Source: Nanobdellota archaeon
GTDB taxonomy: Archaea; Nanobdellota; Nanobdellia; Parvarchaeales; Parvarchaeaceae
Direction: 5' to 3'
Assembly: GCA_021807125.1 (NCBI GenBank)
Contig: JAKAPK010000001.1
Location: 118,354-182,353, forward strand
DNA: 64,000 nt
Part shown: in pieces, positions 5,967-12,398 of the stretch
Position numbering within the stretch: position 1 is the first letter of the stretch
Layout of the letters: each line of letters begins with the position of its first letter
Position numbers and translations under genes: made by a program
The notes under the pieces: model-generated
Told to the model about the DNA's origin: nothing
The model's database searches: none
The model's input: the letters and a program-made list of their open reading frames with translations, nothing else

Positions 5967-6146
5967 TTACACCCCCGCACCAGGGCCGAAAATTCCCTTG
6001 CTAAGTGCAGAGAAAAAGTTAGCAACTGGAGCGACTATAGATGTTGGACCGACAAATATTAAATATGCTATCACTACTATCAATGCGAGAATCAGAAGTA
6101 TTATATAGAATATTAAGGTCTCACTCATGCCTTTTTTATTTTTCAT
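5967..6146 (-). CDS. Small pilin-like exported protein (59 aa)
   Basis: I start at the ATG at 6146, giving MKNKKG followed by a hydrophobic stretch of ~25 residues (METLIFYII-type, with Glu at +4 of the predicted mature end) and a short Ala/Gly-rich tail. A short basic head, Gly, then a long hydrophobic helix with an acidic residue near its start is the class III (type IV pilin) signal layout cleaved by PibD-type peptidases. It is the last gene of a tandem minus-strand array. The function, structural subunit or membrane peptide, is not shown by sequence. Confidence 0.72.
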   Translation of the reverse strand: MKNKKGMSETLIFYIILLILALIVVIAYLIFVGPTSIVAPVANFFSALSKGIFGPGAGV

Positions 6147-6150
6147 AAAG

Positions 6151-6294
6151 TCAAGGCAACCCCGGGATTGACGGCATAAGCTTTCCGATAAAATCCGGTG
6201 CGAACACAACCAGATAAAAAATGACTATTATCAAACATACTATAAGAATTATAATCAAAGTTATTAAGTATTCCGTCATCCCGCGCTTATCCAT
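6151..6294 (-). CDS. Small pilin-like exported protein (47 aa)
   Basis: The protein begins MDKRGMTEYLITLI, continues as one hydrophobic helix, and ends with a Pro-rich tail (MPSIPGLP). It has the same basic head, Gly and Glu+3/4 pattern as its neighbours. Its ATG lies inside the end of the upstream gene: the eight bases ATGGATAA hold both this start and the upstream stop, so translation is probably coupled by reinitiation. Confidence 0.7.
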   Translation of the reverse strand: MDKRGMTEYLITLIIILIVCLIIVIFYLVVFAPDFIGKLMPSIPGLP

Positions 6295-6460
6295 AGTTAC
6301 TGAAGTTCATCCCAAGAGTGTATTTCATAAAGTTGGTTATTATATTAGTTATCTTATAAGGCGTGAAGAATTCCAGCACGGCGATTACTATAATTACACA
6401 TACAACTGCTACCATTATATATTCTAGCAGTTTTCCCTCCACAGCTCCTTTTTTATCCAT
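6287..6460 (-). CDS. Small pilin-like exported protein (57 aa)
   Basis: MDKKGAVEGKLLEYI opens the protein, followed by a Val/Ile-rich membrane helix and a short polar tail ending in NFSNYG. The layout matches a class III signal peptide protein with an almost absent exported domain. Both ends use the 8-nt ATGGATAA overlap: its start overlaps the upstream stop and its stop overlaps the downstream start. Confidence 0.7.
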   Translation of the reverse strand: MDKKGAVEGKLLEYIMVAVVCVIIVIAVLEFFTPYKITNIITNFMKYTLGMNFSNYG

Positions 6461-6623
6461 TGCCGAAAAGCCAGCTGAAAGAGACTACACTCCATAGCTC
6501 TTGGCTTACTGAAAAGCCACCTCCGCTGAAAACGATAAGTATCAGGATTATAGCTACGAGTATTATTATCGCTATGATTATCGCTATTATCTCTGTTAAT
6601 GGAAGTTCTCCCTTTTTATTCAT
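6453..6623 (-). CDS. Small pilin-like exported protein (56 aa)
   Basis: MNKKGELPLTEIIAI is followed by a long Ile-rich helix and a Gly/Ser/Trp-containing tail. The KKG-E head and acidic residue before the hydrophobic core are the class III signal pattern. Its stop overlaps the next gene's start by eight bases (ATGGATAA). It follows the 143-aa gene after a 31-bp gap. Confidence 0.7.
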   Translation of the reverse strand: MNKKGELPLTEIIAIIIAIIILVAIILILIVFSGGGFSVSQELWSVVSFSWLFGNG

Positions 6624-6654
6624 AGTATACCTATTACGTTACTAAATTAAAGGT

Positions 6655-7086
6655 TTAGCAGTACATTGTACCGCCACCTTCTCCTCCACTGTTATAGAAT
6701 GTGCCGCCGCCCGTCTTTCCGCCGCTGGTGTTACACACATACAAATTTTGAGTATTAAGTGCTACGTTCAATATCGTAATATTGCATGATGATGCACCTG
6801 GCACATATTGACACATTTTTCCAGTCGAATTATACAAAGAATAATTAAGTCCGGGAGTGCCCAAGGTTACCGTAACATAAAAAGAACACACGCCGGAATC
6901 TGTTATTGTGTGTGTCACAAGCTGGCATGTCGCAGGGGTATTTCCAGGGCTTACAGTTACTGGTCCTGAGCCGAATATCGCGGCGAAGAATCCGGATATT
7001 GTAAGAATCAATACTATTACTAAGAAGATGATGACGAGCATCAAGCTTACTATTATCTCTATCGTTGATGCAGCTTTGTTTTTCAT
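6655..7086 (-). CDS. Pilin-like exported protein with six cysteines
   Basis: 143 residues. MKNKAASTIEIIVSLM is a good pilin head: basic start, Ala-Ala cleavage-type site and Glu at +5, followed by ~25 hydrophobic residues. The rest (~40-143) is Ser/Thr/Gly-rich with six cysteines and a predicted beta-rich fold ending in a Gly-rich GGGTFYNSGGEGGG segment. It probably sits outside the membrane as a disulfide-bonded pilus or surface subunit. The ATG is only one base after the stop of the upstream 518-aa gene. Confidence 0.72.
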   Translation of the reverse strand: MKNKAASTIEIIVSLMLVIIFLVIVLILTISGFFAAIFGSGPVTVSPGNTPATCQLVTHTITDSGVCSFYVTVTLGTPGLNYSLYNSTGKMCQYVPGASSCNITILNVALNTQNLYVCNTSGGKTGGGTFYNSGGEGGGTMYC

Positions 7087-7087
7087 A

Positions 7088-8644
7088 CTAAGAAACTACA
7101 GCGCACATATACATCTCGTTTTCGCCCAGTACGCCAGGATGGCCAAACGCATTCGATAGATAACCGCTTATGCATGAAACACATTGAGATAGACCACTGG
7201 TAGTGAAAAGTCCAGTACTTATCACATTCGTTAAATCATTATATCCTGGTTGCAGTATGTATTGATTGCATCCGGAATTTGAACTGCAAGCTGCCGTCGT
7301 AGAACCAGCAGCAATACCCGTTACAGCTAATGCAGATACCGTTGTTATACCCAGTTTTCTTCCAGCCCCTTTGTATAAGCCATAATAGAATATTGCTGCC
7401 CTTGCACAGTAATCATAGCAGCTTCCTGGATAATTGTTAAGGTAAGTGAATGGCGCACACTCCGATGGCAGACTTATAGTACTTGGTACAAAGCGTGTCC
7501 CGGAGAGCGAATTAAGGAATAGTATATACAATTGTGCATGACTTATACTCCTATTTATAGCGTCTGGGGAGCTTAAAGTTTTGAAACTGCCATTTGTGTA
7601 GGGTATTTCATCTGTAGCGCCCCCAGGTCTTACATATTCGTAAGCTCCACTTGTTTTATTGACCCAAGTCATGAATAGGTTTATGCCGGGTTGAAGATAA
7701 TTGAAGAAAGTCATGTTGCTGGTTATGCCGGAATTTATGTTCTCAGTCAGAGTGCAGCTAGCAGGTGCGTAAAAAGAGTCTGTGACTGAATTATATACAA
7801 CAGAGCAGTTGTATTTACCAAAGCCCTGCTCAGACGTCGGATTTTGGCTGCAAAAATTAAGGTAATACTGCGTACATGCGTTTATTGAGCCGCTAGCGTT
7901 TTCACACGCCCCCGCGCCCGAATCTGCAGTCGGTACAAATGAGCATCCAACCTGCGAACATAGATATTCAGACATATTGTTAGCTGCTGTAGTAGCTTTG
8001 TTCGGAGTGTTAAGTGGTATGTTAATAACCTGCCCCGGGCCTGCATTGTAATTCACAGAATCCTCACATTGAAAATAATTGTTTGTGGATAATTCGCAAA
8101 GGTTTGGCTGTTGAGTATCGCATGCATATCCTTTTGCGTAATTAGGACAAGCTTGCTCTGCTGTATGTCCTACGCAACTAGGTGTAGAAGAATAAGCCGT
8201 GACGTTTAGATATTTGGTGAAGTTATAGAATGTAACGTTAGAATTAAGGTTAAGGCTTATCTCGCTACAAATTGGCGCTTGATCCTGTATTACCGCCCAC
8301 CCCTGGTCGCCCCCATATTGATACCAGCAACTCGATAATGCAGTAACGATTCCTGAAAAAGCGGTATTTGCGTTGCTTCCAGAATAAGCAGAAGTAGACG
8401 GTGAACAGCCATAAAGAGGAGGTACCAACCCTAACGAATTCAAAGTACTGGAAAGACATGCCACATTGGTTACGCAAAGACCGGTGTTTATGAAGTTTCT
8501 AAGACCAGAACTTGCGAAACAGAGCGAACTATCACTAAAACCGAAACCGAACAGCAGAAAATACGCAAATATAGATATTATTACAAACGCTATTATCGCA
8601 AAAGCTATCCAGAATACGGTGTATTCACCGCCAGTCTCAGCCAT
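7088..8644 (-). CDS. Large Cys-rich membrane-anchored exported protein (518 aa)
   Basis: A single N-terminal membrane helix (residues ~9-33) follows a short MAETGGEYT head. The remaining ~480 residues are predicted extracellular, rich in Asn/Ser/Thr, with N-glycosylation sequons and 26 cysteines by my count. No known domain is recognisable. High even cysteine content suggests a disulfide-stabilised ectodomain. It lies between pilin-like genes on the same strand with near-zero spacing to the gene after it, so it is probably a component of the same surface structure (inference). Confidence 0.75.
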   Translation of the reverse strand: MAETGGEYTVFWIAFAIIAFVIISIFAYFLLFGFGFSDSSLCFASSGLRNFINTGLCVTNVACLSSTLNSLGLVPPLYGCSPSTSAYSGSNANTAFSGIVTALSSCWYQYGGDQGWAVIQDQAPICSEISLNLNSNVTFYNFTKYLNVTAYSSTPSCVGHTAEQACPNYAKGYACDTQQPNLCELSTNNYFQCEDSVNYNAGPGQVINIPLNTPNKATTAANNMSEYLCSQVGCSFVPTADSGAGACENASGSINACTQYYLNFCSQNPTSEQGFGKYNCSVVYNSVTDSFYAPASCTLTENINSGITSNMTFFNYLQPGINLFMTWVNKTSGAYEYVRPGGATDEIPYTNGSFKTLSSPDAINRSISHAQLYILFLNSLSGTRFVPSTISLPSECAPFTYLNNYPGSCYDYCARAAIFYYGLYKGAGRKLGITTVSALAVTGIAAGSTTAACSSNSGCNQYILQPGYNDLTNVISTGLFTTSGLSQCVSCISGYLSNAFGHPGVLGENEMYMCAVVS

Positions 8645-8685
8645 ACAGAATTATTAAACGGGCTAAATATAAGGTTTTTAGACTG

Positions 8686-9672
8686 TTAGCCGGGATTTGT
8701 TATGCAAACGAACACTCTGTTCTGCGCGTTTACCATAGTATTCAAGAGTATGCCGCAGAATGGGACAGTATAATTCTCTGGTGCGCACCCCAAAATTTTC
8801 GTATTTAGAAGACTGTTAAAACCTCCAATCAGTCCGTTGCTAAGTGAACTTACAGGCATTGTTGTTGCGGCTGCAGAATAGTTAGCGTAACTGCATACAG
8901 ACGCTCGTTCAGATGACGTTATGTTCGGTTGTGCGAATTTCGAATCATAGTAACATGAAGAAGCCCAGTTTATAGGGCAGGCAAAAGAGACCACAAGTGT
9001 AGGATTTGGTACCGCACCAGGTGCTGGAAATGATAGCGAAACAGATGCACCGGGATATCTGAAGTATACAATATCATAATACGAACCATTTTCAACGTGC
9101 GCCGATGTATTAGTATAATTAGCCAGTTCTCCGCTGCCATTCGTTATAAGAACTATCTGCAATGGGCTGTTCGGGTTGTAATAATTTTTATCAATGTAAT
9201 TTATTACGTTGCTGAAGTTGCTTATATCGCCGCTTTCATAATTGTATATCTTGCCATAATAGCAATTGAATATGTCATTGAAATTGCCCTTGCTTAAAAG
9301 CGTATTTCCAGTCTGTTGGTTGTTTCCGGCAAACAGATCAAAGCATGATGCAGCCTTTCCATATATTTGAGTCGCAATATCTGCCGTGCTGTATGCGTTT
9401 ATGTTGCTTTCGGTTATGCACGCAGATTGTATTTGTGCAGCGGAAGCACTGCTTGGGGAAAGATAATTGAAACCCACTGCGCTTATAAACGATGTGAACG
9501 GCTCAAGATAACTATTAACAAGGTTGTACTCGACGAAAGCGAAATAACAGTTGAAACCGAAACTGAGAGCACCTGTAGACATCGAGAACACCAATACGAC
9601 TACAAACAAAATAACACCAGCTATGCTTATTATCAATATTTCTATGAATGTGAGCCACATCCCGCTTGCCAT
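8686..9672 (-). CDS. Cys-rich membrane-anchored exported protein (328 aa)
   Basis: MASGMWLTFIEILII starts a single membrane helix (~5-33) with an acidic residue near its front. The ectodomain has about ten cysteines, many Asn/Ser/Thr and glycosylation sequons. No known domain was recognised. Its start overlaps the stop of the 53-aa upstream gene by one base (TGATG). It resembles the 518-aa neighbour in style, with an aromatic and Cys start after the helix, but I see no clear alignment. Confidence 0.75.
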   Translation of the reverse strand: MASGMWLTFIEILIISIAGVILFVVVLVFSMSTGALSFGFNCYFAFVEYNLVNSYLEPFTSFISAVGFNYLSPSSASAAQIQSACITESNINAYSTADIATQIYGKAASCFDLFAGNNQQTGNTLLSKGNFNDIFNCYYGKIYNYESGDISNFSNVINYIDKNYYNPNSPLQIVLITNGSGELANYTNTSAHVENGSYYDIVYFRYPGASVSLSFPAPGAVPNPTLVVSFACPINWASSCYYDSKFAQPNITSSERASVCSYANYSAAATTMPVSSLSNGLIGGFNSLLNTKILGCAPENYTVPFCGILLNTMVNAQNRVFVCITNPG

Positions 9673-9833
9673 CAGCCGCCTCCTCCGAATATATTAGAGA
9701 ATAATGAAAAAGGAGACTGTGTGTTGATCTGGGCATAATACAGTGCAACAATGACTATTGTCATAACTATTAAGCCGGCTATCACCGCGATTAACCATAT
9801 TATTCTCCATTCTATGTCTCCCTTATTATTCAT
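9672..9833 (-). CDS. Small pilin-like exported protein (53 aa)
   Basis: MNNKGDIEWRIIWLIAVIA begins the protein: basic-polar head, Gly, acidic residues, then a hydrophobic helix; the tail ends in FGGGG. It is the same kind of mini-pilin as those at 5967-6623. Its stop and the next start share one base (TGATG), and its ATG lies three bases after the stop of the upstream 166-aa gene. Confidence 0.7.
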   Translation of the reverse strand: MNNKGDIEWRIIWLIAVIAGLIVMTIVIVALYYAQINTQSPFSLFSNIFGGGG

Positions 9834-9836
9834 ATT

Positions 9837-10337
9837 TTACTGTCCTAGGCACGGGGCGCAATACTTACTGTCTCCCGGTATGCATTGCGGATTTGATATG
9901 TCACAACTCTGTATTTGCGTTGCGTTATCTGCCACAATAGTGCTTTTATCGCAGCTTTCCAATGCCGCTGTATTCGAAGGGGACAAGTTGCTGCACGCGG
10001 CAAGTACGCCCGGGGGCGGGTTGCTTATACAGTTAAGAGCAGCATTTTGGTTTCCACTATAATTGTAATAACACCAGTGCGTTATGCACGTGGATTTAGC
10101 AGTCTGTTGGTTATAACAACAATCGGTGAGATAAGACCGGAATAATGCGGTGCCTTCATATCTATTTGGCCACCCGTATTGTGCGGCAGTAAATTGGTTC
10201 TCGCACAGATTGTTTTGGTTAGGCCCTATAAATAGGGCTGCAGAAAAACTCGCTGAGAATTCTAAGAATATTATTACTGCTACTACAATGGCGAACAATA
10301 CCCCTATAAGTATGAATTCTTCAGCGCTCGTCTGCAT
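9837..10337 (-). CDS. Cys-rich pilin-like exported protein (166 aa)
   Basis: MQTSAEEFILIGVLF has the Ala-Glu-Glu front of a pilin-type helix (~5-32). The ectodomain of ~130 residues has 12 cysteines, including a CC pair, and ends CIPGDSKYCAPCLGQ. It is the first gene of the 5967-10337 cluster on the minus strand, so its upstream region probably carries the cluster promoter, although I cannot pick a clear box. Confidence 0.72.
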   Translation of the reverse strand: MQTSAEEFILIGVLFAIVVAVIIFLEFSASFSAALFIGPNQNNLCENQFTAAQYGWPNRYEGTALFRSYLTDCCYNQQTAKSTCITHWCYYNYSGNQNAALNCISNPPPGVLAACSNLSPSNTAALESCDKSTIVADNATQIQSCDISNPQCIPGDSKYCAPCLGQ

Positions 10338-10928: not shown

Positions 10929-11366
10929 TTAATTGTTTACAGTACCGGTTATGTTTATCTCAACATTGCTGAATGAGATGTTTGTGGGCGTATACTCTAT
11001 GGTTATAGTCGCGGTGAACGGCGACGGCAGAGAAGAAACAGAAAGATTACATTCAGTGTAATTAAGTGCCGGTACGAACGTATTGGTACACAGAATCCCG
11101 TTGGTATTTATGCTGTTCCCGCTAAAGTATATATTGGTAAGATTTATATTCTCATTCAGCAGATTTTGGAATTTTATAATAAAATTGCCATTAAGGTAGC
11201 CCTGCTTTACAACGTTAAGCCCCGGGAATCCGTTGGTATAGGGGTTTGAAGGGCTGCCGAAAGCCTGCGGATAAAATATGTATATGACCGCAAGTGCAAC
11301 TGCTATAGTGGTGAACGCCACACTATAAACCAATAATTGTTCTATAGCTATCTGCCCTTTTCTCAT
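10929..11366 (-). CDS. Pilin-like exported protein (145 aa)
   Basis: MRKGQIAIEQLLVYSVAF is a textbook class III signal: RKGQ with Glu at +5 of the mature chain, then ~25 hydrophobic residues. The ~105-residue exported part is Asn/Thr-rich with several N-glycosylation sequons and looks like an immunoglobulin-type beta sandwich found in archaeal pilins (inference). It contains two cysteines. It is closest in head sequence to the 30853 and 31407 proteins. Confidence 0.78.
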   Translation of the reverse strand: MRKGQIAIEQLLVYSVAFTTIAVALAVIYIFYPQAFGSPSNPYTNGFPGLNVVKQGYLNGNFIIKFQNLLNENINLTNIYFSGNSINTNGILCTNTFVPALNYTECNLSVSSLPSPFTATITIEYTPTNISFSNVEINITGTVNN

Positions 11367-11666: not shown

Positions 11667-12398
11667 TTAATTCCTAATCGACGCTATATTGCTGGCAATT
11701 TGCATGAAAGATGCAGCCGTCTTACTTTTAGTGTTCAAAACAGTTATTGGAGTGCCAGTCATCAGTGCACGCGACATTTTTGGTTCTTCCGGTACCTCAC
11801 CAACTATCTTTGTCCTTACCATATGTTCAATGTCGCTCTTCGACATGTTAGACTCGTTTTTTATGTTGACTTTGTTTATGACTATACCGAGGACTTTAAT
11901 CTTGTTCTCTTCAATTTTTTCTTTAAGTTTTTTAGCTTCTATTACGGATGTTATCTCCGGTAAAGTTACAAGAAGAACGTTAACGTCGTTTATAAGTTTT
12001 ATAAAGTCCAGACTGCTGGATGGTCTCGAATCTAGCACTACAAAATCGTATTTGTCGCGTATCTGATTCAAGTGATGAAAAAGATTTATTAATTTGTAAT
12101 CCGCGTTTCCGTCACCAAGTTTCTTAAATATCCTTGAAGGTATTATATCCAGACTTATCTTATCGTTGTGATATATCGCTTTTTCCATCTGTACAGTCCC
12201 GTTTAGGACGTCTTGAAGTGCGTAGTTGAAGTCGCTAAAACCGTAATGCACAGCTACGTGAGGAGTCTCTAAGTTCGTGTCTATTATCAGTACTTTATGA
12301 TTCAACAAAGCCAAAGCCATCGCGATATTTATCGAAGTAGTAGTCTTGCCGACCCCTCCCTTCGGGCTCATTATAGCGATTACCGTTGCCTTTTTCAT
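11667..12398 (-). CDS. MinD/ParA-family ATPase
   Basis: 243 residues with the deviant Walker A PKGGVGKTT at ~11-19, the DTNLETPH switch region, and a Walker B-like VVLDSRPSSS. MinD/ParA proteins are dimerising ATPases that place division or surface machinery at membranes or nucleoid. The C-terminus (SKTAASFMQIASNIASIRN) could form an amphipathic membrane-binding helix as in MinD. No MinC/MinE or ParB is nearby; the neighbours are a zinc ribbon and, beyond the tRNA, a pilin-like gene. Its client is unknown. Confidence 0.85.
   Translation of the reverse strand: MKKATVIAIMSPKGGVGKTTTSINIAMALALLNHKVLIIDTNLETPHVAVHYGFSDFNYALQDVLNGTVQMEKAIYHNDKISLDIIPSRIFKKLGDGNADYKLINLFHHLNQIRDKYDFVVLDSRPSSSLDFIKLINDVNVLLVTLPEITSVIEAKKLKEKIEENKIKVLGIVINKVNIKNESNMSKSDIEHMVRTKIVGEVPEEPKMSRALMTGTPITVLNTKSKTAASFMQIASNIASIRN

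Follow-up and report, generated by a model that had tools for sequence, protein, structure and literature searches.

Nine clustered pilin-like genes of a Parvarchaeales archaeon, five of them very short, as probable parts of a DPANN type IV filament machine

For most DPANN archaea a dependence on other cells is assumed, which raises the question of the machine with which they hold or enter a host. We describe here an array of nine adjacent minus-strand genes, running from position 10337 to position 5967 of a 64 000-nucleotide stretch (the window) of contig JAKAPK010000001.1 in the Parvarchaeales assembly GCA_021807125.1, a genome of 653 kb that is 79% complete. Five of the genes encode mini-pilin-like proteins of 47–59 amino acids (aa), designated by their lengths as m53, m56, m57, m47 and m59, and the other four encode N-terminally anchored proteins of 166, 328, 518 and 143 aa that hold 12, 10, 26 and 6 cysteines, respectively. 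From comparison of their sequences and gene order with those of relatives, we estimate a probability of about 0.68 that the products of these genes belong, as pilin-like subunits, to a DPANN type IV filament machine, with a VirB11/GspE-type ATPase of ∼750 aa as its motor and a TadC-like protein as its platform. The array is assigned to this machine because its homologs share an operon with a pilus-type ATPase and a platform gene in related families. It is probably the working end of a little-studied surface filament, and this filament may serve cell contact across the whole group. The near-universal motor of one large DPANN class would then be tied to a specific, ordered set of subunits that includes easily missed tiny genes, a question that can be tested in the few cultivated co-cultures.

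Conservation of the array and selection on its short genes

An earlier sequence-only reading of the window had reported nine genes of these sizes and cysteine counts, and a check of the open reading frames (ORFs) confirms them, with all nine present at their noted coordinates. The array is packed like an operon, with intergenic gaps of 1–41 bp and overlaps of 1 bp between m53 and the 328-aa gene, 8 bp between m56 and m57, and 8 bp between m57 and m47. The strict alternation of mini and large genes that had also been described does not hold: one mini lies inside a core cassette and the other four form a tail. The minis had moreover been placed below usual gene-calling length; common gene callers take genes down to ∼90 nt, and the minis, at 144–180 nt, should thus be callable, though easily missed.

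The relatives used for comparison are metagenome assemblies; 30 loci from other genomes were examined together with the window, giving 31 loci. Parvarchaeales comprise the three genera Parvarchaeum, Acidifodinimicrobium and Rehaiarchaeum (PMC10134863), and the family of the window likewise has three; the genome of the window is presumably that of a Parvarchaeum-type acidophile. The 518-aa protein is found in 30 of 31 same-family genomes, its own included, and in one more distant genome. Cysteines make up most of the invariant columns in the alignment of this family, and a profile built from it finds relatives in 45 of the 378 genomes of the class, reaching well beyond the family of the window. 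Two cassettes are conserved, a core (166, m53, 328, 518 and 143) and a second one (m56, m57, m47 and m59), and the ‘array of nine’ is these two units joined in the window. The expectation that relatives would share the same gene order is borne out inside each cassette but not between the two. In most members of the genus (L024, L028, L031 and others) the second cassette lies in the opposite orientation to the core, and the genes for GINS51 and a Hef-like helicase are turned with it, while in the window (5967–6623) and in sister-genus loci the cassettes are colinear. A viral or mobile origin was considered and rejected, since the 518 profile found no relative in viral contigs and the array lies among housekeeping genes (L15e, GINS and the Hef-like helicase).

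Iterated profile searches resolve the minis into five ortholog families, each found in 26–28 of the 31 loci including the window, with E-values from 1e-15 to 1e-31 (Table 1). Each mini of the window scores 74–93 bits against its own family and at most 29 bits against any other, and every family has a specific C-terminal motif. In close pairs, the median omega by the Nei–Gojobori method is 0.164 for m53, 0.070 for m56, 0.127 for m57, 0.153 for m47 and 0.050 for m59, and pN/pS pooled over disjoint pairs is 0.42–0.58 (Fisher P from 2.6e-20 to 1e-41). The sequence-only reading had staked the minis on conservation in relatives and on purifying selection at the codon level, and both are found. Although the minis are short, hydrophobic and without database families, as spurious ORFs or fast-turnover peptides without a conserved role might be, that explanation can be dismissed on the codon-level test (median omega 0.05–0.16) together with the presence of orthologs in fixed order at so many loci.

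Linkage to a pilus-type ATPase and platform

In G052, G056, G035 and G042, genomes from remote families of the class, array homologs directly follow a 750-aa-type VirB11/GspE-family ATPase gene in one operon. A single run in G052 (locus L046) encodes an ATPase of 751 aa, a platform of 682 aa, a homolog of the 166-aa protein (136 aa, E = 1e-40), a mini of 42 aa, homologs of the 328-aa (7e-60) and 518-aa (5e-115) proteins, and a mini of 51 aa that ends in SWLF and matches m56 at 5e-19. After the ATPase and platform, G056 (L093) carries in order homologs of the 166-aa (159 aa, 1e-24), 328-aa (2e-10) and 518-aa (5e-49) proteins and an m56-like mini (6e-7), the mini directly following the 518 homolog. 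The 166 homolog of G042 (137 aa, 2e-22) likewise comes directly after the ATPase and platform genes, and G035 (L089) and G042 (L142 and L091) show the same order wherever homology is detectable.

The genome of the window has the corresponding pair at G000:C7:1699-6008, ∼120 kb from the array. It consists of an ATPase of 746 aa (G000:C7:1699-3939) and, directly after it, a 696-aa protein with ∼10 transmembrane segments that is homologous to the 682-aa protein of G052; the two are 51% and 35% identical to their G052 counterparts over 97–99%. Matches of the ATPase profile in the PDB are to GspE (2oap, A. fulgidus-type, 1.7e-34), CpaF (8rkd, 3.8e-28) and FlaI (4ii7, 1.7e-20). Of the 139 genomes of the class that are sufficiently complete, 135 have a ∼750-aa ATPase of this type, and a single A24 prepilin peptidase is found in 26 of the 28 genus genomes, that of the window included. 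None of the ten proteins searched has an archaellin match in Pfam and the ATPase is only a distant relative of FlaI, no genome search having been aimed at FlaH or archaellins.

Two other kinds of gene were seen beside this ATPase. A divergent coiled-coil pair (∼120–135 and 200–230 aa) adjoins it class-wide (L046, L089, L093-L096, L098, L100 and L105), possibly encoding cytosolic partners of the ATPase. In Parvarchaeum-type genomes, the gene directly upstream of the 746-aa ATPase (L073:61-1674 and L077:11888-14329) encodes a large secreted protein that contains an SGTSxAAP stretch; it is sedolisin-like by eye, and the fragment has no Pfam match.

For a class-wide comparison we added 40 further ATPase regions, mostly from different families, and took as a pilin-like run four or more N-anchored genes, minis not counted, that lie downstream of the ATPase. 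Minis at these distant loci were called by a length and hydrophobicity rule with a home-made gene caller, and weak profile matches between hydrophobic helices do not prove orthology there. Among the 28 loci with a pilin-like run, 25 hold one or more minis and 24 hold two or more, and the density of minis is 2.39 per 10 kb inside the runs versus 0.57 elsewhere in the same loci (∼4-fold). The 518-like gene has a mini as one of its two neighbors in 16 of 18 loci (one of these minis being a gene cut by a contig end) versus a per-gene background of 0.195, and m56-like minis follow the 518-like gene in other families too. Most distant arrays (L089, L090, L095, L097, L105 and others) also contain several tandem paralogs of 85–160 aa that start with K[AS]QGLP (or KKAQIS) and have ∼6–10 cysteines, which are candidate major pilins; none was seen in the family of the window.

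N-terminal signals, proposed assembly and alternatives

A K/R-x-G/A motif resembling a class III signal cleavage site is present in all 26 sequences of m53, all 28 of m56, 25 of 27 of m57, 26 of 27 of m47 and 13 of 28 of m59. After the putative cleavage Gly/Ala, m53 has Glu at +3 in 24 of 26 sequences and m56 has an acidic residue at +6 in 25 of 28, and an acid is present in 18 of the motif-bearing m57 and 24 of the motif-bearing m47 sequences. The 13 m59 sequences with a class III-like leader all have Glu or Asp at +3, and most of the others start leaderless, with M-E. In several species (L028, L030, L040, L041 and relatives), the ATG-Glu of m59 immediately follows the stop codon of m47 and an in-frame leader is absent, whereas both the helix and the Glu are retained, which looks like an evolutionary loss of the prepilin leader. 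The occurrence of one mini-pilin as leadered and leaderless orthologs is a natural experiment on what a type IV pilin truly requires. The 143-aa protein carries a class III-type signal as well. The class III signals that had been ascribed to the array are thus found in most minis and in the 143-aa protein, but not in the other three large proteins nor, in about half of the species, in m59.

Several results weigh against placing the array in a type IV filament machine. A class III-like motif is present in none of the 24 orthologs of the 166-aa protein, none of the 26 of the 328-aa protein and two of the 29 of the 518-aa protein; because the N-termini of these proteins are acidic and leaderless, not every member of the array is a class III substrate. 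The Class_IIIsignal model (PF04021) matches none of the ten proteins at E-values up to 1, and the Flp model (PF04964) matches none of the minis within the same limit. In the family of the window, the array lies apart from its presumed motor, and the link between the two is drawn from relatives. The 696-aa platform has no Pfam match and that of G052 has only a sub-threshold match to T2SSF, a family to which the ∼706-aa frames across the genus also match weakly. Finally, most genus genomes have a second type IV system, with a 507-aa ATPase and two separate T2SSF proteins, which is a possible alternative user of the array.

In the mechanism that we propose, every array protein would be inserted with its N-terminus inside and its C-terminus outside the cell. 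The minis and the 143-aa protein would be trimmed by the A24-type prepilin peptidase, and the large Cys-rich proteins and leaderless minis would be inserted without such trimming. The N-terminal helices, which mostly have an acid near the start, could pack as one heteromeric helical bundle that is extruded, or held, by the type IV motor. The minis would serve as ectodomain-free, Flp-like linkers or adapters, joining the disulfide-rich large subunits, which would form a tip or act as adhesin, to a filament made of ordinary pilins, for instance a 145-aa pilin encoded upstream of the array, and the task of the machine would likely be contact with the host or a neighboring archaeal cell. N-glycosylation sequons are mildly enriched in the 518-aa and 328-aa proteins (observed/expected 1.25 and 1.15) and depleted in cytosolic controls (0.81 and 0.59), which, with the strict conservation of cysteines, hints that the large proteins may be located outside the cell.

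The sequence-only reading had proposed that the minis form a filament core or membrane platform carrying the larger subunits, an interpretation that is partly supported. We tentatively favor, at somewhat below even odds, a tip or initiation complex with mini adapters over a filament core, because the five single-copy minis differ in sequence, one of them adjoins a large subunit in most loci, and Glu +5 pilins (143 and 145 aa) are encoded in or near the array. A core made of one mini, or of several, that would polymerise as the Flp-like major pilin, with the large Cys-rich proteins decorating or capping it, is unlikely. Mature minis would measure ∼42–53 aa, similar to the mature Tad pilin of Caulobacter, a bare helix of 45 aa that polymerises without a globular domain and needs its N-terminal Glu for assembly (PMC11067988), and the PDB relatives of the ATPase include CpaF of the Tad pilus. 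However, five single-copy families with their own conserved C-terminal motifs are more readily explained by a defined hetero-complex than by a homopolymer, and the canonical Glu +5 pilins could themselves be the filament.

The minis and Cys-rich proteins might instead build a complex for secretion or attachment that is static, spans the envelope in the manner of a pseudopilus or channel, and borrows its motor from a type IV system; we consider this quite unlikely. The leaderless, acidic N-termini of the large subunits would suit such a complex, as would the loss of the m59 leader with retention of its helix, by which pilin-style processing appears dispensable for some parts, and bridges other than pili are on record between DPANN cells and hosts, with the tubes in that case attributed to the host (PMC11329633). 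Yet most minis and the 143-aa protein retain class III-like signals, and the genome retains a prepilin peptidase. It is very unlikely that the array serves the 507-aa ATPase system rather than the 746-aa one. That system is widespread in the genus, and archaeal pilin sets and motors can be reshuffled (PMC4858521), but it is the 750-aa-type ATPase that the arrays directly follow in the four relatives described above, and no such array is adjacent in two mapped 507-aa loci (L072 and L075).

In a wider reading, the machine could represent a distinct class of type IV filament machine. It would be a defined heteromer in which several mini-pilins without ectodomains combine with disulfide-rich subunits, leaderless ones among them, and it would have a motor that is near-universal in this DPANN class and serve as the host-contact apparatus of the symbiont. 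We regard this wider proposal as rather doubtful on present comparisons.

Relation to known systems and neighboring genes

Tad/Flp pili, including the Kil pilus of Myxococcus, resemble the array in having very short bare-helix pilins with an N-terminal Glu and a CpaF-type ATPase. In the Kil pilus, large minor pilins form the tip, and two short minor pilins of the Flp kind, KilO (59 aa) and KilK, act as adapters, without which the filament is unprimed (PMC12075869). In contrast to these systems, the array lacks a match to the Flp model, places five different minis side by side and has Cys-rich large subunits without prepilin leaders, and its acidic residue is mostly at +3 or +6, not at +5 (Flp has Glu-Tyr at +5/+6). 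The minis possibly work like Flp; we do not claim that they are Flp.

Makarova, Wolf and Koonin (2019; PMC6393860, Fig. 2A) present ‘dark matter’ islands of DPANN genomes in which FlaI and TadC occur with exported proteins that they propose to be diverse pilins. A pilus-type ATPase, a TadC-like protein and many uncharacterised exported proteins are common to these islands and the array; the available text makes no mention of mini-pilins, of ortholog families and their order, of selection or of how widely the array is distributed, and our loci were compared with those islands by description only. Archaeal type IV pili with Cys-rich minor pilins (ATPase subclade 4E, Pyrobaculum and relatives) share with the array multiple small pilins, large Cys-rich components and a MinD-type ATPase. 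Ectodomain-free mini-pilins are not described in the available portion of the corresponding source (PMC4858521), and the 166, 328 and 518 families of the array have no Pfam or NCBIfam match. Diverse pilins have already been proposed for DPANN islands, and Cys-rich minor pilins are known in other archaea. In the open-licence literature searched, we found neither the set of mini-pilins, with its orthology, gene order and leaderless members, nor a coupling of this set to a single ATPase that is near-universal in the class. In samples from acid mine drainage, cryo-EM has shown ARMAN cells joined to Thermoplasmatales cells by pili-like and filamentous structures, some of which extend from the partner, with no link to array genes shown (PMC4110969).

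None of the nine array proteins has a credible match in Pfam or NCBIfam, and sequence searches of the PDB with the 518, 328 and 166 profiles gave no credible relative. Photosystem and transporter subunits were rejected as candidates, matches in Pfam/NCBIfam such as those to PsbJ or EmrB lying far below the cut-off. The array genes and two of their upstream neighbors are listed in Table 1.

Table 1. Genes of the array and upstream neighbors, with positions in the window
Feature	Position	Strand	Supporting observation
166-aa N-anchored Cys-rich protein (12 Cys), gene 1 of core cassette	9837..10337	-	Family orthologs 49–62% identical
m53, 53-aa mini-pilin-like, consensus KKGSVEWR..W..., C-terminal SPFxxFxNLFGGG	9672..9833	-	26 orthologs, almost always adjoining the 328-aa gene on its upstream side
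328-aa N-anchored ectodomain protein (10 Cys)	8686..9672	-	Family alignment; homologs in G052 and G056 at the same operon position
518-aa N-anchored ectodomain protein (26 Cys)	7088..8644	-	Family profile and alignment
143-aa pilin-like protein (6 Cys), N-terminus K-A-[AS]-S-T-I-E (Glu +5 type)	6655..7086	-	Positional orthologs in most family loci, with [KR]x[GA]SxxxE-type start
m56, 56-aa mini-pilin-like, KKGxMPITEIIAI..., C-terminal SFSWLFG	6453..6623	-	28 orthologs including G052 (4e-18)
m57, 57-aa mini-pilin-like, C-terminal FTPYKIT	6287..6460	-	27 orthologs, position fixed between m56 and m47
m47, 47-aa mini-pilin-like, KKGVx[ED]Y..., C-terminal LIPxxP	6151..6294	-	27 orthologs
m59, 59-aa mini-pilin-like, KKGxxEAxxFYIIA..GPS, C-terminal GPS; ATG within a longer TTG ORF	5967..6146	-	28 orthologs
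145-aa class III pilin (RKG↓QIAIEQLL, Glu +5)	10929..11366	-	Conserved on the upstream side of the array in most genus members whose flanks are assembled
MinD/ParA-type ATPase	11667..12398	-	Pfam AAA_31/CbiA/ParA; conserved neighbor in the genus

Upstream of the array, most genus members have genes for a MinD-type ATPase, a small zinc-ribbon protein, the 145-aa class III pilin and ribosomal protein L15e. The 145-aa protein is a candidate major pilin, and we infer that it belongs to the same machine. The MinD/ParA-type ATPase is possibly a FleN/MinD regulator; ATPases of this kind accompany archaeal type IV pilus loci (PMC4858521). Elsewhere in the genome of the window, near the prepilin peptidase gene (L074:9606-12469), three tandem genes encode pilin-like proteins of ∼300 aa (KKGQ..., SGQ...), which may be substrates of the system with the 507-aa ATPase.

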